In this document: in pieces, positions 4,982 through 43,800 of the stretch
Numbering within the stretch: the first letter of the stretch is position 1
How the letters are laid out: each line of letters begins with the position of its first letter
Source: Rhodococcus sp. 06-235-1A
GTDB taxonomy: Bacteria > Actinomycetota > Actinomycetes > Mycobacteriales > Mycobacteriaceae
Direction: 5' to 3'
Length of the DNA stretch: 64,000 nt
Assembly: GCF_002258785.1 (NCBI RefSeq)
Contig: NZ_NOYI01000008.1
Coordinates: forward strand, 248,001 to 312,000
Translations under genes and position numbers: made by a program
The notes under the pieces: model-generated
Told to the model about the DNA's origin: nothing
The model's database searches: none
What the model saw: only the letters and a program-made list of their open reading frames with translations

Positions 4982-5581
4982 TCATCGCATCGCCTCGTCG
5001 CCGGCCCTCTCACCGACCATCGACTCTGCCACCGACGCGATCGCAGCCAGAAGATCGCGTCTGATCAACGCACTCCCCGGGCGGATCAACGCCCAGTACG
5101 CAGCGAAGCGAAGCGATGTGCGGGTGTCGGTGGTGCAGACCCGCGTGCGCGTACAGAGCAGCGTTCCACTTCGATGCGGCTCGACGGTGAAGTTCATGAC
5201 CACCTTCGTCCACCCGGGCTCGTCGAAACTCTCGAATGCCGCCCGATCGGTTCGGGAGATGCCCGGCCGACCATTGCCGGAGAAGTCGTACCGGGCGATA
5301 TCGGCGAGCACCAACTCCGTTCCCTCGACGCGATCGATCTCGCGCGGAGCGAAGGCCTCCACGGCTGGCTTGTTCGATTGTGCAGCAACATTCTTGGACC
5401 AATCAGGGTCGATCCACGCCTTCGGACCCGACCGGAGCCGCACGAGCGCCATCGACATCGACAGGGCGTCCACCGGTGTCGCGTGCAGGGCATCCCACAC
5501 AGTCGATTCCGGCGCCGAGACCACCCGCCGGTGTGTCTCCTGCTGAGAAAAACGCGGCATGATCTGATCGATGAGAGTCAT
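4982..5581 (-). CDS. SRPBCC/DUF2867-like protein of unknown function
   Basis: The 199-residue protein starts at ATG 5581, which overlaps the stop of the mutase E gene by 4 nt (ATGA), so translation is probably coupled. An N-terminal RRVVSAPESTVWDALHATP segment, an ELVLADIARYDF strand and a long C-terminal helix suggest a START-like (SRPBCC) ligand-binding fold. The C-terminal YWALIRPGSALIRRDLL is distinctive. No catalytic residues can be named. Its place at the end of the operon, directly behind glutamate mutase, suggests a cluster role, for example binding a hydrophobic intermediate. That is inference only. Confidence 0.55.
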   Translation of the reverse strand: MTLIDQIMPRFSQQETHRRVVSAPESTVWDALHATPVDALSMSMALVRLRSGPKAWIDPDWSKNVAAQSNKPAVEAFAPREIDRVEGTELVLADIARYDFSGNGRPGISRTDRAAFESFDEPGWTKVVMNFTVEPHRSGTLLCTRTRVCTTDTRTSLRFAAYWALIRPGSALIRRDLLAAIASVAESMVGERAGDEAMR

Positions 5582-6861
5582 CGACTCGCCCCTTCCATTT
5601 CGGGTATGTCCGCCTTCGCCGCGACGGGTAGGTGCGGTACATCGAATTTCATCTGGACGTGGTGCAGATTGTCGAGCAATGCAGACGAGGACATCGCCGC
5701 GGTGACTCCGGTAGGCACCGGTAGTGGCATCGCTCCGATGGACGACCACTGCAGCCGTCCTCCGCCGTCGATCACTGCGCGGGCACGTCCGCTGTTGTCC
5801 GGATGCAAGCAGTAGGGAACGTCGATGATGCCGCGGTTCAATGCACGAACCAGGGCCACGTCGATGTCGCGGTGGCAGTCGAGAGCCCCCTCGACCAGGG
5901 CCAGCGCCTCGTCCTCGATACCCGAATCCAGTTGCGAGATATCAGCATCGGCAGCTCGAAGCCGTCCGGCAGCAGTCGCACTCGCATGCTCGAGCGCAGC
6001 GACATTCTGCTCGATCGTGGGGATCCGCTTCGACTCGGCGACGGTCTTCACGATCAGCCGTTCGGCCGATCCGTCCACTGCGAGTCGCGCGGCTGCGCCG
6101 AGCAGATCGGTGGCTCCCCCGATCGTCGTGGGATAGACACCCATGTAGGCGTACACAACCACATGCCATCGGATGTTCGGCAAGTATCGGGCCGCCAGAC
6201 GACGCAGAACCGTGAGTGCCTCGCGATCCTGCCTCTCGTCGGTCTGCTGGGCGTAGCTCAGCGAGACACTCGTCAGCCCGTGTCCGGCGAAGAACATGCC
6301 CTCGAGGATCGACACCGCGATCAGCAAGCTCGGAGGGCACAACTGCCCCATCAGACACCCCCCGAAGGTCTCCAGATGAGGGGTGCGCGTGGGCGTTCGG
6401 GCCGCGGCGAGGGTTTCACACGTTCGCGCCCAATCGGTGACTGCCTCGGCGATGGGTGTGCGGCCGTACGGCAGGCAGTAGGAGATAGGGCCGCCTTCGG
6501 TCGCAGTGAGCCCCACCTGCACCAGCCGTTCGACGATCGAGTGCGCCAGGGCCGATCCGTGCCGAATCTGGACGGGAAAACCAGCAGCCAGACTGTCCGC
6601 CAGCACCCGCTCGGTCACCGACGAATCGTGCGTCAGAATGGGGTACCCGTTCAAGTCGGATCCCGCTCGTACCGCCCGTGCGGCGGTATCGAGATCGCCT
6701 ACTCGCGTGAAGCTGTCGAGAGTGATCGTCCCCACCGTGGCGGCGTGGGCAGCGGCAGTCGCCGCCAGCCCGGTCCTCATGGTCTCCGGATCCGAAAATC
6801 CCATCCTCGGCTGCACCACAAGGGAATCGGACGAAGCCACGTACCCACCGAAGTCGTCCAT
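5578..6861 (-). CDS. glmE: methylaspartate (glutamate) mutase, E subunit
   Basis: The 427-residue protein matches the catalytic E chain of coenzyme-B12-dependent glutamate mutase, which with the S subunit interconverts L-glutamate and (2S,3S)-3-methylaspartate. Signature stretches are GGPISYCLPYGR, TFGGCLMGQLCPPSLLIA, the EGMFFAGHGLTSVSLSYAQQ barrel strand and VYAYMGVYPTT. Length is near that of other secondary-metabolism E chains and shorter than the clostridial enzyme (about 480). I take ATG 6861, which overlaps the S-subunit stop by one base (TGATG); a GTG lies one codon earlier. Similar mutases supply methylaspartate to NRPS lipopeptides such as friulimicin and to skyllamycin. Here the last NRPS module has an Asp-family pocket, so it is the likely user. 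Confidence 0.9.
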   Translation of the reverse strand: MDDFGGYVASSDSLVVQPRMGFSDPETMRTGLAATAAAHAATVGTITLDSFTRVGDLDTAARAVRAGSDLNGYPILTHDSSVTERVLADSLAAGFPVQIRHGSALAHSIVERLVQVGLTATEGGPISYCLPYGRTPIAEAVTDWARTCETLAAARTPTRTPHLETFGGCLMGQLCPPSLLIAVSILEGMFFAGHGLTSVSLSYAQQTDERQDREALTVLRRLAARYLPNIRWHVVVYAYMGVYPTTIGGATDLLGAAARLAVDGSAERLIVKTVAESKRIPTIEQNVAALEHASATAAGRLRAADADISQLDSGIEDEALALVEGALDCHRDIDVALVRALNRGIIDVPYCLHPDNSGRARAVIDGGGRLQWSSIGAMPLPVPTGVTAAMSSSALLDNLHHVQMKFDVPHLPVAAKADIPEMEGASR

Positions 6862-7331
6862 CACGCACCCACCGAGGTGAGTGCGTCGGCCGAATCCAGG
6901 AATCGTGTCAGACCGTCCAGATCGGACGCGTCGAGAAAAACGGAGTCGAACCCGGCGTCCAAGAGTTGGGCAGTGCGTTCGTGCCCGCTCTCACCCATGG
7001 TCGTCAACTTCCCACCGATGACCGCCGGCACGCCGCCGATCTCTGCCCTGATGCGTTCGATCAACCGCACACCATCGATGCAGCCGTGACCGTTGACCGT
7101 GCTGACCACCAGTACATCGGGTTCGATGCGCCGGCACGCCTGCACCACCACCTCGTCCGGTACGCACGGGCCGAGGTTGACTACCGTGTGACCGTGCTCC
7201 TCGAGGAGCAACGCCAGGAACACCAGGTTCCACGTGTGTGCGTCGGAGGACACCGTCGTCAGAACCACCCGCCGACCGACAGCCGGCACGGAAGTCCCCC
7301 CGCAGGCTCCACTCCCGCCCCCAGAGGTCAT
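6861..7331 (-). CDS. glmS: methylaspartate mutase, S subunit (B12-binding)
   Basis: From ATG 7331 the protein has 156 residues, the usual size of a mutase S subunit. The cobalamin-binding fold shows SSDAHTWN where the family has DxHxxG: the Asp and the cobalt-coordinating His are present, but Gly is replaced by Asn. A later GGKL strand-loop fits the lower-axial dimethylbenzimidazole pocket, and LVVSTVNGHGCIDG is the usual middle strand. The gene starts just after the DsbA-like gene and ends by overlapping glmE. The N-terminus is a glycine-rich GGGSGACG segment, which is duplicated upstream in frame; starting farther upstream would include both copies but would overlap the previous gene more. 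Together with GlmE it should make 3-methylaspartate. Confidence 0.85.
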   Translation of the reverse strand: MTSGGGSGACGGTSVPAVGRRVVLTTVSSDAHTWNLVFLALLLEEHGHTVVNLGPCVPDEVVVQACRRIEPDVLVVSTVNGHGCIDGVRLIERIRAEIGGVPAVIGGKLTTMGESGHERTAQLLDAGFDSVFLDASDLDGLTRFLDSADALTSVGA

Positions 7332-7352: not shown

Positions 7353-7365
7353 GCCCACGACGCGG

Positions 7366-8091
7366 CTATCCGCAGCCACCGGCAGAGTCCGTGTCGTAAG
7401 CAACAGCTCCCAGCAACCGGTCGATCCGGTCGTCCTCGATTGCCGCGATACCGTCCGAGGACACGTCCACACCGGCAACCGAAAGATCGGTGAGGAACCA
7501 CTCCAACCGGTCGAGGCCCCAGAATCGCTGACGCTTGTTCAGGAAGTAGGGCACCCCGAAGATGTCGGAGTGGTAACCGTCGTACAGAGCGTCTGCGCCG
7601 GCGTCGCGCACGGTGTCGTCGTCGACCGCGGACGCGATCGCGGCGGGATCGAGCCCGGCGATCTCCGCTGCTCTACCGATCACGGCCGGATCACTGATGT
7701 CCTCGCCGCGTTCCCAACGCGCTGCGACGACGGCGTCGTAGAACTCCCATTGCCTGCCCGCTGCACGCGCCTGCAACCAGCCCAGGTGCGACGGTTCCCA
7801 CCACGGCGACATGTCCACCGGCCAGGTCATGGACAGTCCGTACCGTTCGGCGAGCCGTTTCGTATCCTGCAGGATGTACAGGTGCTTGGCCTTGCTCATG
7901 GGGGTGTAGATGATCTCGCCACCGCGTGCGGCCAACCGGCTCGCGGTGTTGGCGTCTGGCTCCCAGAACGGTACGAAGTCGAATGTCGAACGCGCAGAGG
8001 GGACTCGGCGATCGAGCTCGTGCATTGCGATCCAGCTGAACGGACTGCGAAACGAGAACCACACCTTCGGTGGCTTGGGCGCGCGTGCCAT
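7366..8091 (-). CDS. DsbA-fold isomerase-like protein (HCCA isomerase / kappa-GST type)
   Basis: The 241-residue protein has the DsbA-like thioredoxin fold of 2-hydroxychromene-2-carboxylate isomerases: N-terminal WFSFRSPFSWIA (family FDFxSPYSY), a helical insert, and C-terminal IFGVPYFLNKRQRFWGLDRLEW (family VFGVPxF...FWGqdRL). There is no CxxC, so it is not a disulfide oxidoreductase. ATG 8091 overlaps the thioesterase stop (TGATG). Proteins of this fold occur in reducing type II polyketide clusters, where they have been linked to double-bond isomerisation of polyene or cinnamoyl chains. That role fits its position among the type II genes, but it is inference from context. Confidence 0.78.
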   Translation of the reverse strand: MARAPKPPKVWFSFRSPFSWIAMHELDRRVPSARSTFDFVPFWEPDANTASRLAARGGEIIYTPMSKAKHLYILQDTKRLAERYGLSMTWPVDMSPWWEPSHLGWLQARAAGRQWEFYDAVVAARWERGEDISDPAVIGRAAEIAGLDPAAIASAVDDDTVRDAGADALYDGYHSDIFGVPYFLNKRQRFWGLDRLEWFLTDLSVAGVDVSSDGIAAIEDDRIDRLLGAVAYDTDSAGGCG

Positions 8092-9008
8092 CAGCGGCCC
8101 CCGAGTAGCTTGGTGCGCGTCTCGTCGTCGAACGTCGCCAGCGTGCCCGCCTCGGTGCCCCGGCTGACGGCGTAGCCGTGCACCACCGATGCGGTGGCGG
8201 TGTGGAACAGCGTGCCCCCGCGCTCGACGTACATGTCGATCTTGGCGGGGTACATCACGTCCTTGATCACCTCGTCGACTCGCATGACGGTGTGCAGCGT
8301 CTCACCCATCAGGGCGTCTTCGAGAAGCGTTATGCGAGAGCGTGATACCACGGGAATCCAGCCTCGTTCGGCCAGTACCTCCTCGATGGCGAGGCCCCGG
8401 TCGAACAGAAAGCGGTCCACCACTTCCTCGACCGCGCGCACGTAACCGGAGTGCTGCAGGCGCAGTGAGTAGTGGCAGTAGAAGTACGGGATCCGCCACG
8501 ACCACAGGAAGGCATTCGGGTCCTCGGACTTCAGCTGCGCCAACGTCTGGGGTCCGGTGGTGTCGAGCGAGGTGATCTCCGAGACCGCCTCGGCGACGGT
8601 CTCCGGGACGGAGGACCGCGGGGTGGTGTCCACCTCGTGAATCAGTTGCACCCGGGTCTTGCCGTTGAGCACGGTTATCGGGCCGTCACCTCGATCGACC
8701 GTCATGCGGACCGAGAAGGCCCAGCCGAGCTTGCGTTCGTCCCGCGTGACCTGGACCTTCACCTCGTCGTCGAGGTCGATGGTGTTGGGCAGCTGGATGG
8801 ACGAGTCGACGAACTCGACCCCGAGGCCGAAATCACGGTACAGCTTGGTGGGACCCAGATCTCGATCACGAAGATACTGCAGCACGCCCTCTTCCATGAG
8901 ATAGGTGAAGTGCTTGAATCCGATCCAGGTCCTGATGTTCGCGCCCTCGAAGCGGGGCCGCCCGACATACGTCGTCGTCTCGGTGGGCAAGTGTGTTTCG
9001 GTGGTCAT
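8091..9008 (-). CDS. double hot-dog acyl thioesterase-like protein
   Basis: From ATG 9008 the product has 305 residues, about twice the size of a single 4HBT hot-dog domain. The first half (about 20-130) shows WIGFKHFTYLMEEGVLQYLRD and the following strands. The second half (about 160-290) repeats the pattern with RIPYFYCHYSLRLQHSGYVRAVEEVVD and YPAKIDMYVERGG. Such proteins hydrolyse or hold acyl thioesters of CoA or ACP. In this operon it could free stalled acyl-ACP chains or release a finished chain. Which half is catalytic cannot be decided by eye. Its start lies 32 nt after the KS-like gene, with AAGGAC about 6 nt upstream. Confidence 0.75.
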   Translation of the reverse strand: MTTETHLPTETTTYVGRPRFEGANIRTWIGFKHFTYLMEEGVLQYLRDRDLGPTKLYRDFGLGVEFVDSSIQLPNTIDLDDEVKVQVTRDERKLGWAFSVRMTVDRGDGPITVLNGKTRVQLIHEVDTTPRSSVPETVAEAVSEITSLDTTGPQTLAQLKSEDPNAFLWSWRIPYFYCHYSLRLQHSGYVRAVEEVVDRFLFDRGLAIEEVLAERGWIPVVSRSRITLLEDALMGETLHTVMRVDEVIKDVMYPAKIDMYVERGGTLFHTATASVVHGYAVSRGTEAGTLATFDDETRTKLLGGR

Positions 9009-9040
9009 GTGCACGTCCTTCTCTTGTCGTTGCGGTGCGG

Positions 9041-9892
9041 TCAGGCGGCTCGCGCCAGCCACAATCGGGTTCTTCCGTCTTCGGAGTTCTCGCACACCAT
9101 CGATGCCGAGGACACCGGGTGTTGCCACATCCAGTTGGCCGCGACCGCGACCTGCAGTACACCGAGGGTCCCGTAGGTGTTTCCCACTGCGCTGACGAGA
9201 TCGACTCCGCCGGCGCCGAATTCGAGGTGGTCCGCCTGGGGCGCGGGATCGTCCAGTTCCACGGTCACTGTGCCGGGCGGCGGTGAGTCCACCAGCCGAA
9301 GAACCACACACGCCGATGCGGCCACCAGCGGAGCGCCGTTGACGACCTCTGCGACCGGGTCGGACGGTTCGACACCGACGACCACCACGCGGGTGGCTCT
9401 GCGGTTGTGCAGCATCGCTGCGGCAACCCGAACGGCGCTGTGGCCGCCGGTGATTCCCGAGCTGATCAGCAGGTTCGGACCCTGCAGCCCGAACCTGATC
9501 GCCAGGGACGAGGCCACCGCGTTGGGTGAGGCATTGGGCACCTGCATGGAACTGACATCGGATAATTTTCCTGCCAGAACCAACTCGTCCATCTGCGCGA
9601 CGGTGTCGACGTTGTTCAGATTGGAACTCACGATCACCGCGGTGTCCGCGTCGGCACCGGACGCTGCCTCCGGTACCGTGCCGATGTCGAGTCCGAGTGC
9701 CCGGTGCACCGCACAGGCGGCCAGGCGCGTAGCAGTCTCTTTGTAGAGCAGTCGCTTTCGACCGATGATCGTCTTGGCCGAGTCTGCGCCGATGGTCGAG
9801 TACTCGTCGGCCGCAGCGGCCAGATGAGCTTGTCCACCCAGGTCGAGGCCCGGGAGTTGCACCGCGAGTCCCTCGACCACCACCGCGCTCAT
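9041..9892 (-). CDS. short ketosynthase-like protein without catalytic Cys
   Basis: The 283-residue protein aligns with the N-terminal half of a thiolase-fold ketosynthase. At the nucleophile position the sequence is SSGITGGHSAV, so the catalytic Cys is replaced (Ile147 by alignment to the KS-alpha of this cluster). The downstream HGTGT and KxxxGH histidine motifs are absent, because the C-terminal half is abbreviated. It cannot condense by itself. Short non-catalytic KS partners accompany active KSs in aryl-polyene and related reducing type II systems, so it probably pairs with the adjacent intact KS, whose stop it overlaps by 4 nt. Residues 70-100 (SGADADTAVIVSSN) and GLQGPN keep the KS core fold. 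Confidence 0.75.
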   Translation of the reverse strand: MSAVVVEGLAVQLPGLDLGGQAHLAAAADEYSTIGADSAKTIIGRKRLLYKETATRLAACAVHRALGLDIGTVPEAASGADADTAVIVSSNLNNVDTVAQMDELVLAGKLSDVSSMQVPNASPNAVASSLAIRFGLQGPNLLISSGITGGHSAVRVAAAMLHNRRATRVVVVGVEPSDPVAEVVNGAPLVAASACVVLRLVDSPPPGTVTVELDDPAPQADHLEFGAGGVDLVSAVGNTYGTLGVLQVAVAANWMWQHPVSSASMVCENSEDGRTRLWLARAA

Positions 9893-11022
9893 GCCGGAAC
9901 CTGCACTAGCGTAACGGCATTGACGCCACCGAAACCGAAGGCATCTATTTGCACGATGCTGCCGCCGGTGCGACGAGGCGATCCGACGACCAGGTCGATG
10001 TCGCCGGCTTCGTCGATGGGATCGCTGAGTCCCACGATCGCAGGCACGCGGCGTTCGCGCAGGGCTTGGATTCCGACGGCGACGCTCATCAGCGGTGACG
10101 GTCCGGTGGTGTGCCCGAGGGCACCCTTGAGCGCTGTGACGATGGGGGCACTGCCGGTGAAGACGTCCACCAGTACCGCTGCTTCGGTCGGGTCGTTCAG
10201 TGCGGTTCCGGTGCCGTGCGCAACCACGAGATCGACGTCGGCGGCGGTGATGCCCGCCCGCCGATGAGCGCCCCGCATGGTACGTGCGATACCTGCCGAG
10301 TCCGGTGCGGTCTCGTGTGCTGCGTCGCAGGCCATTTCGGTGCCGAGCACTCGCGCGGCCGAACGGTCGATCGACGATGCATGCTCGGCGGACACCAAGA
10401 CCAGCGCAGCAGCGCCCTCACCGAGAAGCACTCCTTTGCGCCGACGATCGAAGGGCCGAACCCCGTCCGATGGGTCCTCGTGCACGCGGCCGATCGAGGC
10501 GATCATGGACTCGCTGGTGCCGTCGCAGGCGGCGACGATCACCACGTCCGCGCGGCGGGTCGCCAGATAGTCCTCGCCGATCGCCAGCGCGTGTCCCCCT
10601 GCCGAGCAGGCGTTGGTGACGGTGATGACCTCGATCGCGTCGGGGACGACCGCTCGCACGGCGCGGGTGAAGTGGAGATCGGGAAGGTCGAACGTCAGCG
10701 GCCGGATCGACGACGCCAATGCTCTTTCCACACCTCGCAATTCGCGCATGCTGGTGCCGACCACCACGACAACGCGGGCCGCCGACAGATCCAATTTCGC
10801 GTCCGCCACCGCGTCGGCGATCACCGACGTGAGCCAGCCGGCCGGTCTCAGGTCGCCCTCGGGACCGTCGCCGATCTGATACCCGAGGTGTACGTTCACC
10901 CGATCGCGGTCGTAGAACTCGAGCGGACGCAGAGCGGACTCCCCGGCGATCAATGCGTCGAACGTTTCCGCCTGGCCGCCCAGGGGACTGATCACCGCGC
11001 TTCCGGCGATGACATCAGCCAT
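9889..11022 (-). CDS. beta-ketoacyl-ACP synthase (second, intact KS)
   Basis: The 377-residue KS keeps a full Cys-His-His triad: TNACSAGG (Cys139), AHGTGT (His269) and KGALGHTTG (His304). It is shorter than KS-alpha (402) and diverges in the N-terminal third. It starts 8 nt inside the chain-length-factor gene and overlaps the degenerate KS, so all four KS genes are translated as one block. It could start the chain, as a KSIII substitute, or extend a different chain length with the degenerate KS as partner. The sequence does not decide between these. Confidence 0.88.
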   Translation of the reverse strand: MADVIAGSAVISPLGGQAETFDALIAGESALRPLEFYDRDRVNVHLGYQIGDGPEGDLRPAGWLTSVIADAVADAKLDLSAARVVVVVGTSMRELRGVERALASSIRPLTFDLPDLHFTRAVRAVVPDAIEVITVTNACSAGGHALAIGEDYLATRRADVVIVAACDGTSESMIASIGRVHEDPSDGVRPFDRRRKGVLLGEGAAALVLVSAEHASSIDRSAARVLGTEMACDAAHETAPDSAGIARTMRGAHRRAGITAADVDLVVAHGTGTALNDPTEAAVLVDVFTGSAPIVTALKGALGHTTGPSPLMSVAVGIQALRERRVPAIVGLSDPIDEAGDIDLVVGSPRRTGGSIVQIDAFGFGGVNAVTLVQVPA

Positions 11023-15426: not shown

Positions 15427-15525
15427 TGCAAGTCCTTTCGTTGGTTCCTCCTCTGCGACGCTACTGGGGCGGTGGCCGTGAAATCCCCTGCGATGCAGCT
15501 TCCTGTAAGACCTTCATCGCGTGCC

Positions 15526-35269: not shown

Positions 35270-38200
35270 ACCAGAGCTGAATTCAGGACCGTCTCGAGCT
35301 CTTCGGTGTCCAGTTCCACCACATCGAAGTCGCTCGGGGCAAGAGCGAGCCGTGGGTCGAGGGCGGCAGCACGGACGAGCTCGCTGCAGGCCTGCTGCCA
35401 TCGGTTCAGCACATCGGTGATCCACGCAGGATCGACGATGCGCGAGCACGAGCTCACGTGCAGCGTGAGCACGCCTGTGCTCGACGCGTATGCGGTGATC
35501 TCCACCGGGTGTACCGCCGAGACGTCGGCCTCGGTCGCCGGAACCGGCGCGAGCGCGTCGACGCTCCAGTCGCCCCCCTGCATCAGCCGTCCCAGATAGT
35601 TGAATCCGATCTGCGATGCAGGCGCGGATGCGAGGATCGGTGCGGCCACGGGATCGAGGTACCGCAGCAGCCCGAAACCCCTGCCGTCGTGCGGAATTGC
35701 GGCCAGTGCAGTCTTGACAGCACTGGTGGTGGCGATCACGGAATCGGCCGGGGCCAGAGCGATGGGATGCACGGTGGTGAACCAACCGACGGTCCGTGAG
35801 AGGTCGAGATCGCCACCGCGGCCGTGCCCTTCCAGATCGAGCACGATGTCCTGACCGAGCGCAAAGACCAACGCCGACAACAGAAGATCACCGGTGCTGC
35901 TGTGGGTCGCGGTCGCCGTCTCGACCAGCAGGGCCCGGGACAGATCGACCGGTAGATCGACACTGTCCACCCGGGTACGAGCGGCCGTGTCCACCCGCGG
36001 GTCGAACGCGTCGCTGACGATGCTGGGCGACGGCGCCGATGCGATGCTCTGCCACTTCTCGATTTCGGCAGTGCCCGGAAGCGGCTGCCGAGTGAGATCG
36101 GTGGCCCAGGTCGAGTAGGAGGTCGGGGCCGGCCGCACGATCGGTGTCGTTGCTGCGCTGATGCTTTCGTAGGCCGAACGAAGATCGTCGAGCAGCACGT
36201 GCCACGACACTCCGTCGACGGCCAGGTGATGCACGATCAGGATCAGCTCCGTCGGGCTGCGCCGAACACCGACGATCATGCGTCCGGTCGGCGGTGACAG
36301 CAGGAACCGGGCGGCTGCGCATTCCTCGTCGGTATCCGCGGTGATCAGCAACTCGAACTGGGGACCTGCTCCGACCGGGTCGATCTCCGCCACCGGTGCT
36401 GCAGAGACGGTCACCCGCATCCTGAGCGTGTCGTGGTTGTCCACCAGTATCCGCAGTGCTGCGCGGAGGTCATCGTTCGTCACATCAGCCGGAAGCGACA
36501 CCGACACACTCTGATTGAACGTCGAGATCGTGCCGTGTCGTTCGGCCCACCACTGCATCATCGGCACCGTCGGCACCGTGCCGGTTCGGTTGTCGTCGAC
36601 CACACTCCCCGCAATCGTCGACGCGGCGGCCAGACGTCGCGGAGTTCGCAGGTCGAAGAAGTGGCGAAAGGTGACGGCGCGGCCGTACTTGGAGATCTTG
36701 TCGATCGCGCTGATGGCCAGGATGCTGTCGCCGCCGAGTCCGAAGAAATCGTCGTCCACGCCCACTTCCCGGCCGAGTACTTCGCCGATGGCTGCGCAGA
36801 TCGCTTCCTCCGCCTCGGTACCGGGCGCCGACCGTACATCCGTGGTCGAGATGTACACCGGGGCAGGCAATGCGGCGATGTCGAGCTTGCCGTTGACGTT
36901 GGTGGGAAATGCGCCGAGTGGCACCACTGCCGAGGGGACCATGTACTCGGGTAGCGCCGACCTGCAGCGGTCGAGCACCTCGTCGACGAGGGTCTCGGAC
37001 TCCGTGGCCAGCACGTAGGCAACCAGACGTGGAGCTCCGCCCGGTCCGTCGGTTCGCGCCGTCACCACCGCGTCGGACACCGACGGGTGCGCACGCACCA
37101 CCGTTGCGATGTCGCCGGTCTCGATGCGGTATCCCCGAATCTTGACCTGGTTGTCGGCGCGGCCGAGGTAGCGCACGTCCCCCGACTCGGACCACACGGC
37201 GAGGTCGCCGGTGTGGTACATCCGTTCTCCGGCAACCACATCGACTCCGGTCGATGCGGGCAGCGCCACGAAGCGCGAGGCGGTCAAGGCCGGTCGACGA
37301 TGATAGCGATCGGCCAGTCCGGCTCCCGAGAGGTACAGGTCACCCATGGTGCCGATCGGCACAGGTCGCAGCGCCCGGTCGAGGATGTGTGCCCGTACCC
37401 CGCTCAGCGGCCGTCCGATCGGCGGGTCGGCGGAGTGCATCGCATCCGCGGACCGGTATTCGGCCTCGTCGGAGAACCAGGCGGTGGCGTACACCGTCGA
37501 CTCCGTGGGTCCGTAGATGTTCGCGATGCGAGCGCCGGGAACAGCGCGCGAGATTCGTTCTGCCACATGATCGGTCAAGGCCTCACCGGCCAGTACCACG
37601 GTGTCCACCTCGATCACCGCGTCGCCGCCGAGAACGGCTACCATCGCCGATGGCACCCCGGACACGAGTGAACCACGGAAACCGTTCTGCGCCAGCTCTA
37701 TCAGATTCTCACCCATCGTGACGGTACCGCCGACCGCGAGCGCGGGGAAGATCTCGAACACCGAGACGTCGAAGCACAGTGACGTGGCGCAGTACACCCG
37801 CGAGAGTCCCTGTGAACCGAAGGTATCGACTGCCCAGCCCACCAGGTTGCGCAGTGAACCGTGCGAGATCACCACGCCCTTGGGAACGCCCGTCGAGCCC
37901 GAGGTGTAGATGACGTATGCGGTATCGGAGTCCTTCGGGCGCTCGACGAGTACCGGACCGGTACCGACAGAGCTCGGGTCGTCGACACGCAGGGTCCTCG
38001 TCACGGCGTCCGAATGCTGCGCAGCTGCCTGTACCGACGCCCGCACCACTGCATCGGTACTCGAATGTGTCAGCACCACAGGCGGTTGCGCGTCCCGCAG
38101 GATGTGCGCGATGCGCTCGGCGGGATGCGCGGGATCGATGGGGACGTACCCTGCGCCCGCTTTCCAGGCTGCGAGCACGCCGACGATCATCTCGTCCGAT

Positions 38201-39774
38201 CTCGGCAGGGCGACACCGACGACGGAACCGGGGGTCACCCCTGCTGCGATCAGAGTCCGGGCCAACTCGTCCGATCGTTCGACCAGTGCGGCATAGGTGG
38301 TGCTGCGCGGTCCGGACGGAGAACCGATGTCGATCGCCGGGTCGAGGGGATGCGTCCGGGCATGCTCGGCGATGAGCGCCAGCGGATGATCGATGTCCGA
38401 CCTCGACGCCGTGCCGGCACCCTCGGCTCGGCCGACCGCGAACTCCGCGAGTCGGTGACGCTCGGCGGCGGGGAGGATGTCCAGAGCCGAAACCGGGTCC
38501 GAGAGCTCGGTGGAGATCAGACTGCGCACCACCGTGTGGTAGCGCGCCGCGATCGCCTGCGCCTCGGAGCGGTCGTACCCGGCCGAGTCGAAGTCGAGGA
38601 CGATCTCGACCCCGCCGTTGCGGCAGTCGAGCACGAGGGCCATGTCCTCGAACGGTCCACCGGCGAGGTTACGCACCTCTGCGCGCTGCGTCCCGAATCG
38701 TAGATCGCTCTCTCCCAGAACGAGATTGACCTGCACGCCGGTAACCGACGTTTCGGTGCCCGCACGCCGGCGCAGGTCCTCGTACCGGTAGCGCTGGCGC
38801 TTGGCGGACGTACGCAGGCCTGCATTCACATCACCGAGCGCGAGAGCGATCGACTCGCCGGTATCGAGTCCGACCGGCAGGGGGACGATGTTGGACACCA
38901 TCCCGGGAGTACTGCGCATCGACATCGAGCGATTGGAGGTGAGGAGAGCGAGTACGGTCTCGTTCTCACCGGTCGTGCGGGTCGACAGCACCGCCAGCGC
39001 AGTGACCAGAACGGTGGGCCAGGACACCGAGGCCTCGCGTGCGGTGCGGTGCACCCCGCTCAGCACTGCCTCGTCGAGCATCGAACGCAACCGGATTCGA
39101 CCTGCCGCCACCCGATGCGTCGGCGTACCGATCGCCACCGGTCCGCCGTGGCCGGCCAATCGCTCGGTCCAGTACCTGCCGTCCTCGGCGGCCGCATCGC
39201 TGTCGCACCGCGCCGCCTCGAGTTCGACGAGGTCCTCGATCGGACCGAAACTCGACGGGGAGATCGCCGAGCCCGACGCCAGGTCCCGGTAGATCGCAGC
39301 GACGCGATCCTGCACCAGGGTGACGCCCACTCCGTCGAGGATGCTGTGGTGATAGCGCTGGTACCAGAGGGTTCTGTTCTCGCCGAGGGTCACGATGGCC
39401 GAGAACACCAGGGGCGTCCGTCCGGGTTGCATCGGGACGGCCATGTCGGCCTCGATCCACTGCCGCGCCCTCGTATCGGAATCCGTGGTGTCGGAATCGG
39501 CCATATCGATCACGGGTACCGCGATTTCCGGGGCCGTCTCACGGTGCAGGACGTCCGCCTCGGCGACTGCAGTCACGATGGCTCGAGAGAGAAGGTCGAC
39601 ATCGATGGGCCCAGGGATGTCCACGACCTCCGCCAGAGCGAAGACTGGATTGTCTGGATCGAGCTGCTGGGCGTACACGATGCCGGACTGTGCCCTGGTC
39701 ATCACGGAGGTCGGCTGCGTTGCATCCGAGGCATCTTCGGCATCGGCGGTGACGGTTGCGGGCGATGCGTTCAT
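30715..39774 (-). CDS. non-ribosomal peptide synthetase, modules 1-2
   Basis: The 3019-residue protein opens the assembly line. Order and landmarks: C1 HHSILDG about 145, A1 625, T1 LGGDS 1013, E1 HHLAVDG 1183; C2 HHTILDG 1650, A2 2114, T2 LGGDS 2506, E2 HHLVVDG 2676, then a short acidic tail. A condensation domain before the first A domain indicates that residue 1 is N-acylated, as in lipopeptides and catecholate siderophores. No loading A or T domain precedes C1, so the acyl group must come from a separate carrier, most simply the ACP of this operon. The protein ends in an E domain and hands its D-configured dipeptide to C3 of the next protein. It is the first gene of the minus-strand operon. 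Confidence 0.96.
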   Translation of the reverse strand: MNASPATVTADAEDASDATQPTSVMTRAQSGIVYAQQLDPDNPVFALAEVVDIPGPIDVDLLSRAIVTAVAEADVLHRETAPEIAVPVIDMADSDTTDSDTRARQWIEADMAVPMQPGRTPLVFSAIVTLGENRTLWYQRYHHSILDGVGVTLVQDRVAAIYRDLASGSAISPSSFGPIEDLVELEAARCDSDAAAEDGRYWTERLAGHGGPVAIGTPTHRVAAGRIRLRSMLDEAVLSGVHRTAREASVSWPTVLVTALAVLSTRTTGENETVLALLTSNRSMSMRSTPGMVSNIVPLPVGLDTGESIALALGDVNAGLRTSAKRQRYRYEDLRRRAGTETSVTGVQVNLVLGESDLRFGTQRAEVRNLAGGPFEDMALVLDCRNGGVEIVLDFDSAGYDRSEAQAIAARYHTVVRSLISTELSDPVSALDILPAAERHRLAEFAVGRAEGAGTASRSDIDHPLALIAEHARTHPLDPAIDIGSPSGPRSTTYAALVERSDELARTLIAAGVTPGSVVGVALPRSDEMIVGVLAAWKAGAGYVPIDPAHPAERIAHILRDAQPPVVLTHSSTDAVVRASVQAAAQHSDAVTRTLRVDDPSSVGTGPVLVERPKDSDTAYVIYTSGSTGVPKGVVISHGSLRNLVGWAVDTFGSQGLSRVYCATSLCFDVSVFEIFPALAVGGTVTMGENLIELAQNGFRGSLVSGVPSAMVAVLGGDAVIEVDTVVLAGEALTDHVAERISRAVPGARIANIYGPTESTVYATAWFSDEAEYRSADAMHSADPPIGRPLSGVRAHILDRALRPVPIGTMGDLYLSGAGLADRYHRRPALTASRFVALPASTGVDVVAGERMYHTGDLAVWSESGDVRYLGRADNQVKIRGYRIETGDIATVVRAHPSVSDAVVTARTDGPGGAPRLVAYVLATESETLVDEVLDRCRSALPEYMVPSAVVPLGAFPTNVNGKLDIAALPAPVYISTTDVRSAPGTEAEEAICAAIGEVLGREVGVDDDFFGLGGDSILAISAIDKISKYGRAVTFRHFFDLRTPRRLAAASTIAGSVVDDNRTGTVPTVPMMQWWAERHGTISTFNQSVSVSLPADVTNDDLRAALRILVDNHDTLRMRVTVSAAPVAEIDPVGAGPQFELLITADTDEECAAARFLLSPPTGRMIVGVRRSPTELILIVHHLAVDGVSWHVLLDDLRSAYESISAATTPIVRPAPTSYSTWATDLTRQPLPGTAEIEKWQSIASAPSPSIVSDAFDPRVDTAARTRVDSVDLPVDLSRALLVETATATHSSTGDLLLSALVFALGQDIVLDLEGHGRGGDLDLSRTVGWFTTVHPIALAPADSVIATTSAVKTALAAIPHDGRGFGLLRYLDPVAAPILASAPASQIGFNYLGRLMQGGDWSVDALAPVPATEADVSAVHPVEITAYASSTGVLTLHVSSCSRIVDPAWITDVLNRWQQACSELVRAAALDPRLALAPSDFDVVELDTEELETVLNSALVERGLTDVLPATPLQQGIIFHSIADSADVYTAQFVFELDARVDDERMRRAVSTVLADNPGLRTGFLWSGLRTPVAVVPTVVDASFDSVTVPNGPETAGPANVAGTGVVERLLVAERDRPFRLDTPPLVRFLLIHSATGRTTLALTCHHTILDGWSVPLLVEQLFGAYGTDPSERGCRTHPSPREFLQWRARQDLDAAAAYWAERLRGAEPLCVADLARPGATSDPVTTEQVAFVLPAHQVQGLTDAAARAKVTVSTVAEVATALALGYSCNREDVVFGKTVSGRSIDLPRVDEIVGCLIDTVPVRIALDPADSVSQLLSIAHREHLAGQSAHFLGLGEIQRAAGLGQLFDVLMVFENYPNDLSSSASVLPIESMTAVDATHYPVTIVVDPRDGLAIRADYRPAAVDASFVRGLVDRIALVLSTISDDGGEVDCGEIDLLTPAERHRIVTAWNDTDHEVTVSTLTELVRIGSDRAIAVDPSWQAVVSEDTGYSYAEFAERVARTATELDGLGVRGRIVAVMVPRSPDMVVVLHAIVAAGAAYLPIDPELPQERRDFVLSDAEPAVVIGAVEKGFTAGEFVYLDLGELLARAAVCTPRELPESSSSDTAYVIYTSGSTGRPKGVRVSHGAIVNRLTWMQHEYDLSPKDRVLQKTPTSFDVSVWELFWPLAVGATIVVAEPGGHTDPYYLAGLIERTGITTLHFVPSMLTAFLAATDPVQSASVLRVFCSGEALPAESVARYFDFFEGATPPALHNLYGPTEAAVDVTYWECTRADVTRGVVPIGRPVWNTRLAILDSRLRPVPAGAAGVLYLAGDQLADGYVERSGLTATRFVADPFGPPGARMYDTGDLCRWGRDGAVEYLGRIDNQIKLRGLRIELGEIENVLTGHRSVRAAAVLARTVGSATQLVGYLAPEDDVAVADLDTAAVAEFAAKTLPEYMVPPIFVVLQSLPSSPNGKLDRRALPQPVAPQSAHEEAVGDLEQLVVDLFARVLGRTDVGATDNFFALGGDSISSISLVGRAATAGFRLSPADVFTGRTPRGIATLATPLAEMDIETGPATGPVPVTPIVAAFTELGALRGLHQSIRIRVPADATPQLLSRAVQSVVERHAVLRMRQRPDGGVEILPRGSADLVEVSVCEPGRSLDPRSDGDELDPETGRMLLARWDATRSELTLIAHHLVVDGLSWEPLTADLEQAYRLVGDCSTTAAELEQFCATEDGTTYRHWARSITDDPGSRRVELDHWRSVLALDGSPDSYAIAGPMGTVAQARSLTLEFPEDVSAASTSEIPEMFRCTAQDVLLAGLAAALQEWSGSDSIPIDLEGHGRSMPRTDLSRTVGWFTTLYPVRLRTPMRPWSELLRSEDHLAASIKAVKEQVRATPDNGIGFGALRYLDPVGEQELSRYPLPAVCFNYLGRTGSDSLDILWKPTVIAGGAHPDAGLRHTVEINGAVTAGHLRLEMIWDATVLDRHDVDEIARLWQEAVTAMATLCTDASVGVATPSDLSISGLTQADIDDIEDDLVFE
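35270..39774 (-). other. NRPS module 1 (C-A-T-E), unidentified D-residue, N-acylation site
   Basis: The pocket residues, read at the GrsA-equivalent positions, are D V F S V A I V Y plus the A10 lysine. I do not recognise this code with confidence. The T domain has LGGDS and is followed by a complete E domain, so the residue should end as D. Boundaries are approximate. Confidence 0.75.
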
Positions 39775-39966: not shown

Positions 39967-40932
39967 ATGATCGAGGCCGTAGGTCTCTGCAAACGATTCC
40001 CCGGATCCGCAGGCGTGATGGCGCTGGATTCGCTGAGCATCAGCGCCCGTGAGGGCACAGTGCTCGGCGTCCTCGGTCCCAACGGTGCCGGAAAAACTAC
40101 TACTGCTCGTATCCTCACAACGCTGCTCGACGCCGACTCCGGGTCCGCCTCGGTTGCCGGATTCGATGTGCGGACGCAGGCCCACGAAGTGCGACGCGCC
40201 ATAGGCGTCGCCGGCCAGTCCGCGAGCATCGACAACCGGCTCACCGGGCGGGAGAATCTCACCCTCGTCGGGGTACTCCGCGGGCTCGGCCGCAAGGGGG
40301 CCAAAGCGAGGGCAATGGAGATCCTCGACACGTTCGGTCTTGCCGATCGCGCGAACGACGTGGCCAAGCACTACTCCGGCGGCATGCGGCGGCGGCTCGA
40401 TCTGGCGGCCGCGCTCGTCGGACATCCACGGGTGCTGTTTCTGGACGAGCCCACCACCGGCCTCGACCCCACCAGCCGCGCCATGCTGTGGGAGTCGGTC
40501 GAACGCGAGGTCGCCAACGGCGTGACCGTACTGCTCACTACCCAGTACCTGGAAGAGGCCGATCACCTGGCCGACAACATCGCCGTCATCTCGGCGGGCA
40601 CGGTGGTGGCCGAGGGCTCGCCCGCAGAACTCAAACGACAGGTCGGCGGGGAGGTACTCCGAGTCGTCCCCAAGGACCCGAACCGCACCGCTGACATGGC
40701 CGCCATCATGGCAACCGTGTGCGGCCGAGAACCGACGAACGGAAAGCAGGGTCTCACAGTGCCTCTCACTTCCTCCATCGCGCAGGTCGCGCACGTTGCC
40801 GATCGGATGGTCGCCGACGACATCGAGGCCGCCGAGTTCGGCATCGACCGGCCCTCGCTCGACGATGTCTTCCATCAGCTCACCGCCGACCCGGAGTCGA
40901 AGGGTGCCCGAGAGCCGGTGGCAGCGCGATGA
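39967..40932 (+). CDS. ABC exporter ATP-binding protein (DrrA type)
   Basis: From ATG 39967 the protein has 321 residues: Walker A GPNGAGKTT, signature YSGGMRRRL, Walker B VLFLDEPTTGLDP and a C-terminal extension of about 90 residues typical of the daunorubicin-resistance (DrrA) family. It drives the membrane partner encoded next, whose ATG overlaps its stop. Such pairs export natural products and give self-resistance; the location opposite the NRPS operon supports that role here. A GTG 9 nt upstream is a possible alternative start. Confidence 0.92.
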   Translation: MIEAVGLCKRFPGSAGVMALDSLSISAREGTVLGVLGPNGAGKTTTARILTTLLDADSGSASVAGFDVRTQAHEVRRAIGVAGQSASIDNRLTGRENLTLVGVLRGLGRKGAKARAMEILDTFGLADRANDVAKHYSGGMRRRLDLAAALVGHPRVLFLDEPTTGLDPTSRAMLWESVEREVANGVTVLLTTQYLEEADHLADNIAVISAGTVVAEGSPAELKRQVGGEVLRVVPKDPNRTADMAAIMATVCGREPTNGKQGLTVPLTSSIAQVAHVADRMVADDIEAAEFGIDRPSLDDVFHQLTADPESKGAREPVAAR

Positions 40933-41714
40933 CCACCATGGTGAGCGACACCGGAGCTCTGGTCGGAAGGCAGATGCTGCATCTGGTTCGAGTTCCCGAG
41001 AAACTGCTGGCCATCGCCATCATGCCGGTGTCCTATCTCGTCATTTTCGGATATCTCTTCGGAGCGGCGATGTCGGTACCCGGCGGCAACTATCGCGAAT
41101 ATCTCATGGCCGGAATCCTGGCGCAGACCATGCTCTCCGGAATCACCTCCACCGGACTCGGGGTCGCCGACGATCTCAACGGTGGCCTCATCGACCGACT
41201 CCGCGCACTCCCCATCACCCAGACGTCGGTGCTGCTCTCGCGCACCGTGGCCAATGTGATGACCTCCGCGGTGTCGGTCGCCGTCATGGCTGCCGTCGGG
41301 CTGTTGATCGGCTGGAAGATCAACACCGACTTCTGGCATGCTGCAGCCGGTTTCGGCGTCCTACTGCTGTTCGGATTCGCCATGTCCTGGTTGGGAGTGG
41401 TGATCGGATTGATGCTCCGCACCGCGGAGGCAATCACCTCCGTAGCCTTCGTGATCGTGCTGCCGGTGACGTTCCTGTCCAACGCGTTCATTCCGCTCGA
41501 GGGGTTACCCGGATGGTTGCGCGTGGTCTGCAGTCTCAATCCGATGAGCTGGGTGGTTCAGGCGACCCGCGAGTTGTTCGGAAACCCCAGCGGCGCAGGC
41601 GCATCCGCCGTGGCCCCGACGCATCCCGTGGCGTGGGCGGTAGGACTCTCCGCGGCATTGACGGTGGTGTTCGCCGCACTGGCCGTGGCTGCGTACCGTC
41701 GGGAATCGAAGTGA
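40929..41714 (+). CDS. ABC-2 type exporter membrane protein (DrrB type)
   Basis: The 261-residue protein has about six hydrophobic helices (roughly 25-48, 58-80, 107-130, 140-165, 170-190, 230-252) and the ABC-2 family motif LPVTFLSNAFIPLEGLPGWLR before the last helices. It forms the membrane channel for the preceding ATPase. Start and stop both overlap neighbours, so the exporter and the Dap genes form one transcript. Confidence 0.92.
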   Translation: MTTMVSDTGALVGRQMLHLVRVPEKLLAIAIMPVSYLVIFGYLFGAAMSVPGGNYREYLMAGILAQTMLSGITSTGLGVADDLNGGLIDRLRALPITQTSVLLSRTVANVMTSAVSVAVMAAVGLLIGWKINTDFWHAAAGFGVLLLFGFAMSWLGVVIGLMLRTAEAITSVAFVIVLPVTFLSNAFIPLEGLPGWLRVVCSLNPMSWVVQATRELFGNPSGAGASAVAPTHPVAWAVGLSAALTVVFAALAVAAYRRESK

Positions 41715-42760
41715 ACGCCGCCCGCGGACACGGAGGTGCCACCAGCACCCAGACCGGACCGCGGACCGTAAACCTCGGGACCCGAACCTCGCTCGGGGAC
41801 ACGATCAACGAGCTACGGCCCGCCTACAGCGGATCCTCGGTGGTCAAACTGGCCCACGACAGCGTCGACCTGTTCGCCAAACTCGAATTCACCAATCCCA
41901 CCGGCAGTTCCAAGGATCGTTCGGCGTTCTGGATGATGCGTCGTGCGATCGCCCGCGGCGAGATATCCCCGGGCCGGCCGATCATCGAGTCGTCCTCGGG
42001 CAACTTCGCAGTGGCTCTCGCATCACTCTGCCGCGCACTGGGATTGGAATTCATTCCGGTCATCGATGCCAACACGAACACCAGCACCGAGAACTTTCTC
42101 CGAGGTGCCTGCGACAGAGTGGAGAAGATCAGCGAACCCGACGCAGGCGGCGGCTTTCTTCAGAATCGGTTGCGTCGCCTCGATCACCTGCTGGCCGATC
42201 TCGCCGGATTCTGGCCCAACCAATACGCCAATCACGATGCGCTGGACGCGCATTACACCCTCACCGCAGGCGAGATCGTCGACCGATTCGACACGTTGGA
42301 CTACGTGTTCGTCGGTGTCGGCACCGGCGGCACCATCTCGGGGGTGTCGAACCGTCTCAAGGAGGACTTCCCCGGAGTCACCGTCGTTGCGGTCGATTCG
42401 GTGGGCTCGGTCATCTTCGGCGGCCAGCCTCGCCGACGTCACATCCCCGGTCTCGGCTCGTCCATAGTGCCGGATCTGGTGCGGCAAGCGATCATCGACG
42501 ACGTGGTGATGGTTGAGGAGGCCGACGCCGTTCTGGCCTGTCACGAACTCGTCCGCAGGCACGGGGTCTTCGGTGGCGGATCGACCGGAACGGTGTATCA
42601 CGCTGTGAACCAGTACTTTCGGCATCATCGGCCGATGCGTCGCCCCCGTGTGTTGTTCCTGTGCGCCGATCGCGGCACCGCGTACACCGATACCGTGTAC
42701 GACTCCGGCTGGGTGCGCGATCATTTCGACCGACCTACATCGAACCAGGAGTTCTCGTGA
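41711..42760 (+). CDS. sbnA: 2,3-diaminopropionate biosynthesis enzyme SbnA-like (PLP)
   Basis: The 349-residue protein belongs to the cysteine-synthase fold. TNPTGSSKDRSAF holds the PLP lysine (Lys68), SSSGNFAVALA is the phosphate/substrate loop, and GVGTGGTISGVS the cofactor phosphate site. In staphyloferrin B synthesis SbnA joins O-phosphoserine and glutamate into N-(1-amino-1-carboxy-2-ethyl)-glutamate, the substrate of SbnB. The SbnB-like gene follows with a 4-nt overlap, which makes the SbnA assignment much stronger than plain cysteine synthase. GTG 41711 overlaps the permease stop; the longer frame upstream lies entirely inside the permease gene. Confidence 0.9.
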   Translation: MNAARGHGGATSTQTGPRTVNLGTRTSLGDTINELRPAYSGSSVVKLAHDSVDLFAKLEFTNPTGSSKDRSAFWMMRRAIARGEISPGRPIIESSSGNFAVALASLCRALGLEFIPVIDANTNTSTENFLRGACDRVEKISEPDAGGGFLQNRLRRLDHLLADLAGFWPNQYANHDALDAHYTLTAGEIVDRFDTLDYVFVGVGTGGTISGVSNRLKEDFPGVTVVAVDSVGSVIFGGQPRRRHIPGLGSSIVPDLVRQAIIDDVVMVEEADAVLACHELVRRHGVFGGGSTGTVYHAVNQYFRHHRPMRRPRVLFLCADRGTAYTDTVYDSGWVRDHFDRPTSNQEFS

Positions 42761-43800
42761 CCCATACGTTCTCCGTGCCCTCTGTGCACACTGCTCCGTC
42801 GATCCACACTGCGCCGTCGATGAGTGTGATCACCAAAGCCGAGGTGGACCGCGTCGTCTCCGAGGACCGTCCCGGTGTTCTCGATACCATCGCCGCCACG
42901 TATCGCGCCGTGGCAGCGGGCGATGTGGTGGTGCCGCACTCTTCCTTCCTTCGGTTTCCCGATCGGCCGAGCGACCGCATCATCGCCCTCCCCGCTTTCC
43001 TCGGATCCAGCTCACCTGCTGCGGGAATCAAGTGGATCTCGTCGTGGCCGGGCAATACCGCCGATGGTCGACCACGAGCATCGGCAGTGCTGATACTCAA
43101 CGACATGCAGACCGGATTCCCCTACGCGATGCTCGAGTCGTCGACGATCTCCGCCAACCGAACGGCAGCCGGGGCGGTTCTGGCCGCCGAACGGGTGGTG
43201 GGTGAACGACGGGCCGCGAAGGTCGCGATCATCGGTGCCGGCCTCATCTCGCGCACCTGCTGGTCGATCCTGACGGACCTCGGTTGGTCGATCGACGAGT
43301 TGTCCGTGTTCGATACCGATCTCGGTTCTGCGCGTCGGTTTCGGTCCGAAATCGACGATCCCGATCTGATCGTCACTGTCGCCGATTCCGCGGTAGATGC
43401 CTGCCGCGACGCCGATCTCGTCATCATTGCAACCGTGGCGGCGCAGCCTCACCTGCATGATCCGGCACTGCTCGACTCCAACCCGGTCGTGTTGCATCTG
43501 TCCCTCCGCGACCTGGCACCGGAACTGATCGCGGCGAGCGTGAACATCACCGACGACGTCGATCACGCCATTCGCGAACGCACGTCCTTGCACCTGGCCG
43601 AACTCGCATACGGTCACCGCGATTTCGTACGCGGCACCCTCGGTGAACTACTGGACGACCCGGTCACCTTCGACCGGTCCGCACCGATCGTGTTCTCGCC
43701 GTTCGGGCTCGGGGTCCTCGACATCGCGCTCGGCAGGTGGGTGCACGACCGGGTGACAGCGAACGGCGGCGGTCACACGGTCTCCGACTTCTTCGGGTGA
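42757..43800 (+). CDS. sbnB: 2,3-diaminopropionate biosynthesis enzyme SbnB-like (ornithine cyclodeaminase family)
   Basis: The 347-residue protein belongs to the ornithine cyclodeaminase/mu-crystallin family: SAVLILNDMQTGFPYAMLES, TAAGAVLAAE, and the NAD motif VAIIGAGLISRTC. SbnB oxidatively splits the SbnA product to Dap and 2-oxoglutarate using NAD. The C-terminal FSPFGLGVLDIALGRWV is typical of SbnB. The first 22 residues are extra and contain a small repeat (PSVHTA, PSIHTA). GTG 42757 overlaps the sbnA stop. Dap made here is expected to feed NRPS module 5. Confidence 0.9.
   Translation: MTHTFSVPSVHTAPSIHTAPSMSVITKAEVDRVVSEDRPGVLDTIAATYRAVAAGDVVVPHSSFLRFPDRPSDRIIALPAFLGSSSPAAGIKWISSWPGNTADGRPRASAVLILNDMQTGFPYAMLESSTISANRTAAGAVLAAERVVGERRAAKVAIIGAGLISRTCWSILTDLGWSIDELSVFDTDLGSARRFRSEIDDPDLIVTVADSAVDACRDADLVIIATVAAQPHLHDPALLDSNPVVLHLSLRDLAPELIAASVNITDDVDHAIRERTSLHLAELAYGHRDFVRGTLGELLDDPVTFDRSAPIVFSPFGLGVLDIALGRWVHDRVTANGGGHTVSDFFG

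Follow-up and report, generated by a model that had tools for sequence, protein, structure and literature searches.

A Rhodococcus gene cluster predicted to make an acylated hexapeptide with a likely cinnamoyl-type cap

Clusters for cinnamoyl peptides (CCNPs), such as those of skyllamycin, WS9326A, kitacinnamycin and epoxinnamide, encode a reducing type II polyketide synthase (PKS), namely a ketosynthase with its chain length factor (KS/CLF), a ketoreductase (KR), a dehydratase (DH), an acyl carrier protein (ACP) and an isomerase, beside a multimodular nonribosomal peptide synthetase (NRPS) (PMC6510318, PMC9321520; these and the other papers are cited here from excerpts of their text). A gene cluster of the same general build is present in a 64 kb stretch (the window, whose positions are used throughout) of contig C35 (NZ_NOYI01000008.1) in the 6.1 Mb genome of Rhodococcus sp. 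06-235-1A. Judged from its genes, the cluster probably directs the synthesis of an N-acylated hexapeptide bearing a likely cinnamoyl-type cap, the likely residues being a D-Ala-like residue, D-Ser, a further D residue, Val, 2,3-diaminopropionate (Dap) and 3-methylaspartate.

In the excerpt of PMC6510318 the isomerase is present in the sky and cal clusters and absent from the other type II PKSs compared, and KS, KR and isomerase were used to find 51 putative CCNP clusters. Cinnamoyl-lipid PKSs generally possess two or three KS/CLF pairs and isomerase-dependent elongation; the ysf (youssoufene) and gla (globisporamic acid) clusters, which like the window have several pairs and an isomerase, contain three pairs, and gla also has LuxR regulators and one NRPS gene (PMC9381841), whereas the window holds two pairs beside a six-module NRPS. 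The epoxinnamide acyl group is assigned to two KS/CLF pairs, KR, two DHs, ACP and isomerase, with no homologue of ring-closing enzymes (Kcn17-19, YssX) according to the excerpt, and the formation of its benzene ring is stated there to require further research (PMC9321520). Skyllamycin contains a cinnamoyl group together with beta-methylaspartate (PMC13194151), the latter being predicted for the window as well. The window differs from the CCNP clusters in its hexapeptide plan with Dap supply, in its Rhodococcus host and in the lack, among its annotated genes, of a P450, of an alpha/beta-hydrolase adjoining the second CLF and of a recognised ring-closing enzyme. The ysf cluster is not known to make a peptide.

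The polyketide synthase and the acyl cap

The nearest structures in the PDB to KS1 and CLF1 are the two subunits of 6kxd (6kxd_A and 6kxd_B, respectively), the KS-CLF of ishigamide polyene synthesis. Both KS1 and KS2 keep the Cys-His-His residues, while CLF1 carries Gln in place of Cys and CLF2 is without the Cys. The 6kxd complex is cited as a typical KS-CLF (PMC10698177). With 6kxd as the best solved relatives and with the position of KS1 in the tree described below, the locus contains the polyene-type KS-CLF of CCNP clusters, together with their second KS/CLF pair (KS2/CLF2 at 9041-11022) and their KR, DH and ACP; no enoyl reductase was found among the annotated genes of the block conserved between Rhodococcus genomes. 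By family, the PKS set corresponds gene for gene to the epoxinnamide core. The genes concerned are as follows.

4982..5581, minus strand: orf1, predicted SRPBCC/helix-grip fold, candidate for acyl-chain tailoring (AlphaFold2 and Foldseek)
7366..8091, minus strand: cis-trans isomerase, 2-hydroxychromene-2-carboxylate (HCCA) isomerase-like (PF01323)
8091..9008, minus strand: double hot-dog protein with acyl-ACP thioesterase fold (PF13279)
9041..9892, minus strand: CLF2, short and chain-length-factor-like, without active-site Cys (PF00109, partial)
9889..11022, minus strand: KS2, ketosynthase with Cys-His-His (motifs and KS2 clade)
11015..12139, minus strand: CLF1, chain length factor, Gln replacing Cys (AGGQ; 6kxd_B, E 1.6e-38)
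12147..13355, minus strand: KS1, ketosynthase of a reducing type II PKS (6kxd_A, E 1.4e-116; TACS/HGTGT/GHT)
13360..13623, minus strand: ACP (PF00550; DADSL)
13620..14252, minus strand: DH2, FabA/FabZ-like subunit, Glu kept and His of GHxP absent (PF07977; FAYP...IIES)
14249..14689, minus strand: DH1, FabA/FabZ-like subunit with the His motif (PF07977; GHYP)
14686..15426, minus strand: KR, FabG-like (TIGR01830, 314.1 bits against a cut-off of 297.75)

In a KS tree of 49 rows, from which CLF rows and rows shorter than 290 residues had been removed and to which three rows had been added, KS1 falls in a clade of 11 rows (support 98/97), every locus of which also encodes KS2 and CLF2 as well as the hot-dog protein and the isomerase, these last two side by side. 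KS2 belongs to a 12-row clade (100/100) made up of the same 11 loci and G396, and this clade includes the KS2 of a second Rhodococcus genome (G020) and 10 non-Rhodococcus loci. An additional KS is encoded in the stretch of six of the nine non-Rhodococcus loci of the KS1 clade (L010-L015) and in none of the Rhodococcus clusters. One of these loci, in the Streptomyces philanthi symbiont (L015), has the same PKS genes split over frames, with CLF1 and the hot-dog gene in pieces, and looks like a case of decay.

The isomerase lacks CxxC, and both of its solved relatives at E ≤0.001 are named HCCA isomerase; most of the named proteins among the 120 homologues listed are likewise HCCA isomerases, and some are called 'DsbA family'. 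A function as a disulfide oxidoreductase, considered on account of its DSBA domain, was ruled out by the absence of CxxC and by the HCCA-isomerase relatives. For G041 and G180, the sequence that was read showed no isomerase. Because the cinnamoyl-lipid subclass of reducing type II PKS is distinguished by a second KS/CLF pair together with the isomerase, a cinnamoyl-type or Z-polyene acyl cap appears likelier than a linear polyenoyl group. The original prediction, made from the window sequence by itself, had proposed a (linear) polyenoyl part; it had missed the second KS/CLF pair and the HCCA-isomerase-like protein, and is probably wrong in kind on this point.

Two further proteins were modelled. 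The model of the double hot-dog protein (pLDDT 82.8) is most similar, at the level of fold, to acyl-ACP thioesterases (Foldseek E 4.2e-13), with LnmK lower in the list. In all seven related loci tested by Pfam, and by reading also in L015 and G700, the genes for CLF2 and the hot-dog protein are separated by one for an alpha/beta-hydrolase; in the Streptomyces and Wenjunlia loci L011-L014 (~14470-16360) the hydrolase and the double hot-dog protein form one frame. The product of orf1 has no Pfam match. Its AlphaFold2 model (pLDDT 85.2) gave weak Foldseek matches, again at fold level only, the best being uncharacterised structural-genomics proteins, followed by weaker matches to WhiE ORFVI (target TM 0.44-0.50), TcmN aromatase/cyclase (0.37-0.43) and plant abscisic acid receptors, and this modelled fold makes orf1 a candidate for ring formation or for binding. 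A spurious ORF was ruled out by its conservation and a dN/dS of 0.135. Distant relatives of orf1 (26-27%) occur in L016 and beside the ABC pair of G700.

The peptide synthetase and its precursors

The genes for the synthetase and for the supply of its unusual amino acids are as follows.

5578..6861, minus strand: MutE, glutamate (methylaspartate) mutase E subunit (PF06368, 255.6 bits)
6861..7289, minus strand: MutS, glutamate mutase S subunit, B12-binding (PF02310; search on 6861-7274)
15529..15747, minus strand: MbtH-like protein (PF03621, 95.7 bits)
15725..30706, minus strand: NRPS2, C-A3-T-E-C-A4-T-C-A5-T-C-A6-T-TE (domain and motif search)
30715..39774, minus strand: NRPS1, C(starter-like)-A1-T-E-C-A2-T-E (domain and motif search)
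41756..42760, plus strand: SbnA-type Dap enzyme, start approximate (TIGR03945, above cut-off)
42820..43800, plus strand: SbnB-type Dap enzyme (TIGR03944, above cut-off)

In the order condensation (C), adenylation (A), carrier (T), epimerisation (E) and thioesterase (TE), the modules read C-A-T-E, C-A-T-E, C-A-T-E, C-A-T, C-A-T and C-A-T-TE. There are six A domains, six carrier domains with GGxS, six C and three E domains with (H/N)HxxxDG and one TE with GWSFG; the C, E, carrier and TE motifs and the adenylation motifs A3 and A5 are all present in NRPS1 and NRPS2. A first, strict pattern for motif A10 gave three hits, and on rereading NGK was found in five A domains and NGSK in the third (window 27934), the same being the case in all three Rhodococcus genomes that hold the cluster. 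These counts and motifs agree with the six modules originally described.

For each A domain the nine code positions were picked out manually between motifs A4 and A5. The resulting codes are DVFSVAIVY (A1, Ala-like), DVWHFSLVD (A2, Ser), DALLIGAVA (A3), DAFWWGGTF (A4, Val), DIWEVTADD (A5, diamino acid) and DLTKLGMVN (A6, Asp or methylaspartate), and they are identical in G015 and G020, the two other Rhodococcus genomes bearing the cluster, except for I to V in A3 of G020, where NRPS1 as a whole is only 66% identical. The solved chains nearest to the first C domain are 7c1k, 7c1h, 7c1p and CDA synthetase I, the 7c1k-type chains and CDA synthetase I being starter C domains that accept acyl groups; the NRPS thus probably begins, like those of CCNP clusters, with an acyl-accepting C domain. 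Control domains from the same synthetase behave differently, C5 being nearest to 5u89 and carrier-condensation (PCP-C) didomains and C2 to microcystin synthetase B and PvdL. The peptide part of the original prediction, X1(D)-D-Ser-X3(D)-Val-Dap-MeAsp, is upheld as a prediction. After the starter-like C domain come three residues with E domains and three lacking them; the codes point to Ser in position 2, Val in position 4, a diamino acid in position 5 and Asp or methylaspartate in position 6, and residue 1 can now be described as Ala-like.

The Dap enzymes score above the NCBIfam equivalog cut-offs (SbnA 382.9 against 349.95 bits, SbnB 386.4 against 326.9) and their genes accompany a type II PKS-NRPS set, an arrangement also found in L019, G700 and G643. 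An association of the fifth A domain's signature with Dap genes was examined in 29 A domains returned as loci from a longer list (L083, a Rhodococcus copy, excluded), the groups being chosen after the data had been seen: SDD-signature domains (ECSDD and ETSDD) had sbnB within 20 kb in 9/13 cases against 2/16 of the others (P 0.003), and ECSDD domains by themselves in 7/11 against 4/18 (P 0.048).

MutE and MutS score below their NCBIfam equivalog cut-offs (137.5 against 390.1 and 59.1 against 110 bits, respectively), and are best described as a relative of glutamate mutase that would work like it. Residues R100, R149, E171, Y177 and Y181 of 6h9e are conserved in MutE, R66 lying outside the alignment; in glutamate mutase R66, R100 and R149 form the arginine claw and E171 and Y177 make contacts (PMC10947579). 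MutS keeps the DxH and SxVxGHG motifs. Among the MutE homologues listed are two near copies (96% and 79%), the others being 49-60% identical and many of them named methylaspartate mutase.

Proposed pathway and its alternatives

In the proposed pathway, for which we infer every substrate, the acyl structure, any cyclisation and all functions of the cluster, a polyene would be assembled by KS1/CLF1 with the ACP, the KR and both DH subunits. One of its double bonds would be converted to the Z form by the isomerase, and more C2 units would come from KS2/CLF2. Ring closure of the Z-polyene would follow, and then oxidation by an enzyme not among the recognised cluster genes. Transfer of the acyl group to residue 1 would fall to the starter-like C domain at the head of NRPS1, with Dap coming from SbnA/SbnB and methylaspartate being made out of glutamate by MutS/MutE. 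The TE would free the finished chain, possibly as a depsipeptide via D-Ser, and the product may be exported by the ABC pair.

Several observations weigh against this reading. No ring-closing or oxidising enzyme is recognisable among the annotated genes of the block, and the gap of 32 bases between CLF2 and the hot-dog gene has no place for the alpha/beta-hydrolase; G020 is alike, and the Rhodococcus clusters hold the hot-dog half only. The isomerase is only putatively of the Sky27/YsfG kind, and its relatives extend beyond the KS1 clade to G396, L019 and G643, the last two having no KS2/CLF2 in the stretch read. On the peptide side, the substrates are putative, being assigned to the codes by look-up, the third A domain has no substrate assignment and an unusual NGSK at A10, and 4/11 ECSDD A domains have no sbnB nearby. 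Finally, the FabD-like gene at 2353-3140 is frameshifted, G015 and G020 each being ~140 bases longer at the break.

A linear all-E polyenoyl group, with the isomerase and the second KS/CLF pair only tuning length or geometry, is an unlikely but not negligible alternative. It would suit the nearness of KS1/CLF1 to 6kxd, the ishigamide enzyme, the lack of a recognised aromatising enzyme in the cluster and the isomerases of L019 and G643 that occur without KS2/CLF2 in the stretch read, but it leaves KS1 in a group of loci of which every one has the second KS/CLF pair, the hot-dog protein and the isomerase. It also sits poorly with the restriction of the isomerase, among the type II PKSs compared in the excerpt of PMC6510318, to sky and cal. 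It is doubtful, though conceivable, that the cluster represents a compact cinnamoyl peptide branch in which the SRPBCC-fold protein orf1 replaces the known ring-closing enzymes and the product is an acyl-hexapeptide with a free diamino acid and methylaspartate. The charge pattern of a diamino acid and methylaspartate is not known from any other cinnamoyl peptide.

The KS2/CLF2 pair also resembles, by profile, the KS-CYF pair AmcF-AmcG of the cispentacin PKS, which forms a five-membered ring (PMC10698177); that KS2/CLF2 would act in this way, by one C2 extension and ring closure to a cyclopentenone-like cap, is nevertheless highly improbable. The top-scoring NCBIfam families are AmcF for KS2 (173.6 bits against a cut-off of 325) and AmcG for CLF2 (42.7 against 80), and DH2 and the ACP have weak matches to AmcE and AmcB, but all of these fall under the curated cut-offs. 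Since the KS2 of four of the five other loci tested likewise scores highest against AmcF, the likeness is a property of the whole second-pair clade. Moreover, no free-standing adenylating enzyme that could take the role of AmcH is encoded within the conserved block, the one just outside (595-2304) having MbcS as best match. A decaying cluster that yields no product in this strain is very unlikely: the FabD-like gene is broken, and its C-terminal piece matches Acyl_transf_1 weakly (27.9 bits, under the gathering score of 32.7), but the other genes of the block are open, the differences from G015 are few and the diverged pair of copies has dN/dS values of 0.05-0.23. A housekeeping malonyl transferase could serve in place of the broken gene. 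Self-acylation of the kitacinnamycin ACP has also been reported (PMC9321520). The hexapeptide with a cinnamoyl-type cap is retained here as the probable product.

Organisation, conservation and distribution

The biosynthetic core is intact. On the minus strand an operon runs from 39774 to 4982 in the order NRPS1, NRPS2, MbtH, KR, DH1, DH2, ACP, KS1/CLF1, KS2/CLF2, double hot-dog protein, isomerase, MutS, MutE and orf1. From NRPS1 through to orf1, 16 genes in all, neighbours either overlap or are spaced by no more than 102 bases, and the near-continuous operon of the original prediction therefore stands. A divergent plus-strand operon, encoding a DrrA-like ATPase, an ABC-2 permease, SbnA and SbnB, begins 192 bases from NRPS1. 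The KS/CLF/KR/DH/ACP set, NRPS, glutamate mutase, SbnA/SbnB and exporter named at the outset are all in place; the second KS/CLF pair, the double hot-dog, HCCA-isomerase-like, MbtH, DUF3995 and SRPBCC-fold proteins had gone unlisted. The extent then given, 4982..43800, located the cluster correctly and set its borders too narrowly, as the block shared with G020 covers ~2353-45852 (~43 kb) and also takes in the LuxR and ABC1-family kinase genes. The flanking and export genes are as follows.

2353..3140, minus strand: FabD-like malonyl transferase gene, broken in two frames (two overlapping ORFs)
3159..4109, minus strand: LuxR-type regulator (PF00196)
4509..4973, plus strand: DUF3995 protein (PF13160 at cut-off; 79.9% identity in G020, dN/dS 0.149)
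39967..40932, plus strand: ABC exporter ATPase, DrrA-like (TIGR01188, 319 bits against a cut-off of 312.45)
40929..41714, plus strand: ABC-2 exporter permease (PF01061)
43837..45852, minus strand: ABC1-family (UbiB-like) kinase, within the conserved block (PF03109)

An antisense ORF (4154-5815, plus strand) was set aside as a gene, having no family match. The kinase at 43837-45852 has a weak NCBIfam match to a macrolide-binding ATPase, so that a role in binding or self-protection is possible.

Gene content, domain order and active-site motifs can be read directly from the window, and conservation and selection from comparison with the related genomes. The window is 97.5% identical to G015 over 53 kb and ~73-78% identical to G020 from ~2408 to 45897, in four pieces with short unaligned gaps. 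Counting its own genome each time, KS1 has matches in 3/37 genomes of the genus at E ≤1e-100 and, at E ≤1e-110, in 6/401 of the family and 21/394 of the class. At E ≤1e-20 the LuxR gene occurs only in the three genus genomes holding the cluster, as do the 89-100% copies of the ABC1-family kinase, two other genomes having relatives of 38-39%. Between the window and the diverged G020 copy all 23 genes of the set, which leaves out the broken FabD-like gene, have a dN/dS of 0.05-0.23 at a synonymous difference of 0.30-0.64 per site, which indicates purifying selection on 23/23 genes and a cluster that is more than a chance assembly.

Among the genomes examined, the triple of this PKS, Dap genes and mutS/mutE was seen only in Rhodococcus. 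Of ten genomes with KS1 relatives, nine gave no mutE match, the tenth being Rhodococcus sp. 1168. Of a set of 23 genomes, six have mutE, four on a contig other than that of KS1 and two on the same contig more than 1.8 Mb away; none of the 23 shows mutE near KS1, within the limits set by G713 (~820 contigs) and G700 (cluster meeting the contig end). Five of the 23 (G643, G700, G544, G685 and G651) have an sbnB gene no more than 30 kb from a KS1 relative, L019 also has sbnB near its KS1 relative, and this ruled out the cluster as unique in pairing Dap genes with this type of PKS. G700, from the same class, has the same PKS core, an orf1-like gene by the ABC pair, SbnA/SbnB, a LuxR-like gene and MbtH within ~30 kb; unlike the window, it has no mutE match in the 72 kb read up to the contig end, possesses the alpha/beta-hydrolase and has a Ser-like first A domain.

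Other loci were noted in passing. Three planctomycete metagenome-assembled genomes (MAGs; L020-L022: Brocadia, Kuenenia and one other) encode a KS1 relative of ~42% identity, accompanied by a hot-dog dehydratase and another KS-like protein, Actinomyces gerencseriae DSM 6844 (L017) has a two-pair, isomerase-type PKS near adenylation domains, and a MAG labelled Rickettsia typhi (L025), a label that looks doubtful, has a type II KS and a KR.

The original statement that no compound with this set was known from a Rhodococcus-like host holds for the triple and not for its pairs, as skyllamycin combines a cinnamoyl group with methylaspartate and sbnB lies near PKS relatives in other actinobacteria. 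No paper on the cluster was found in a library of CC-licensed papers, although a listing in the 51-cluster supplement of PMC6510318 is possible. The excerpt of PMC10100589 makes no link of skyllamycin to Rhodococcus, and that of PMC11303147 gives an antiSMASH similarity to cinnapeptin for a cluster of R. indonesiensis T22.7.1 that may or may not be related to the one in the window. The window's cluster brings known parts together in a new way within an established family of peptide natural products and does not represent a new kind of chemistry. Since it has two KS/CLF pairs and lacks both a hydrolase adjoining CLF2 and a recognised gene for ring closure, it offers a pared-down setting in which to ask what enzyme performs this step in the family. 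Should the peptide indeed be produced, cinnamoyl-lipid chemistry would be brought into Rhodococcus, and three building-block routes, the cinnamoyl-type PKS, Dap and methylaspartate, would be joined in one small hexapeptide system.

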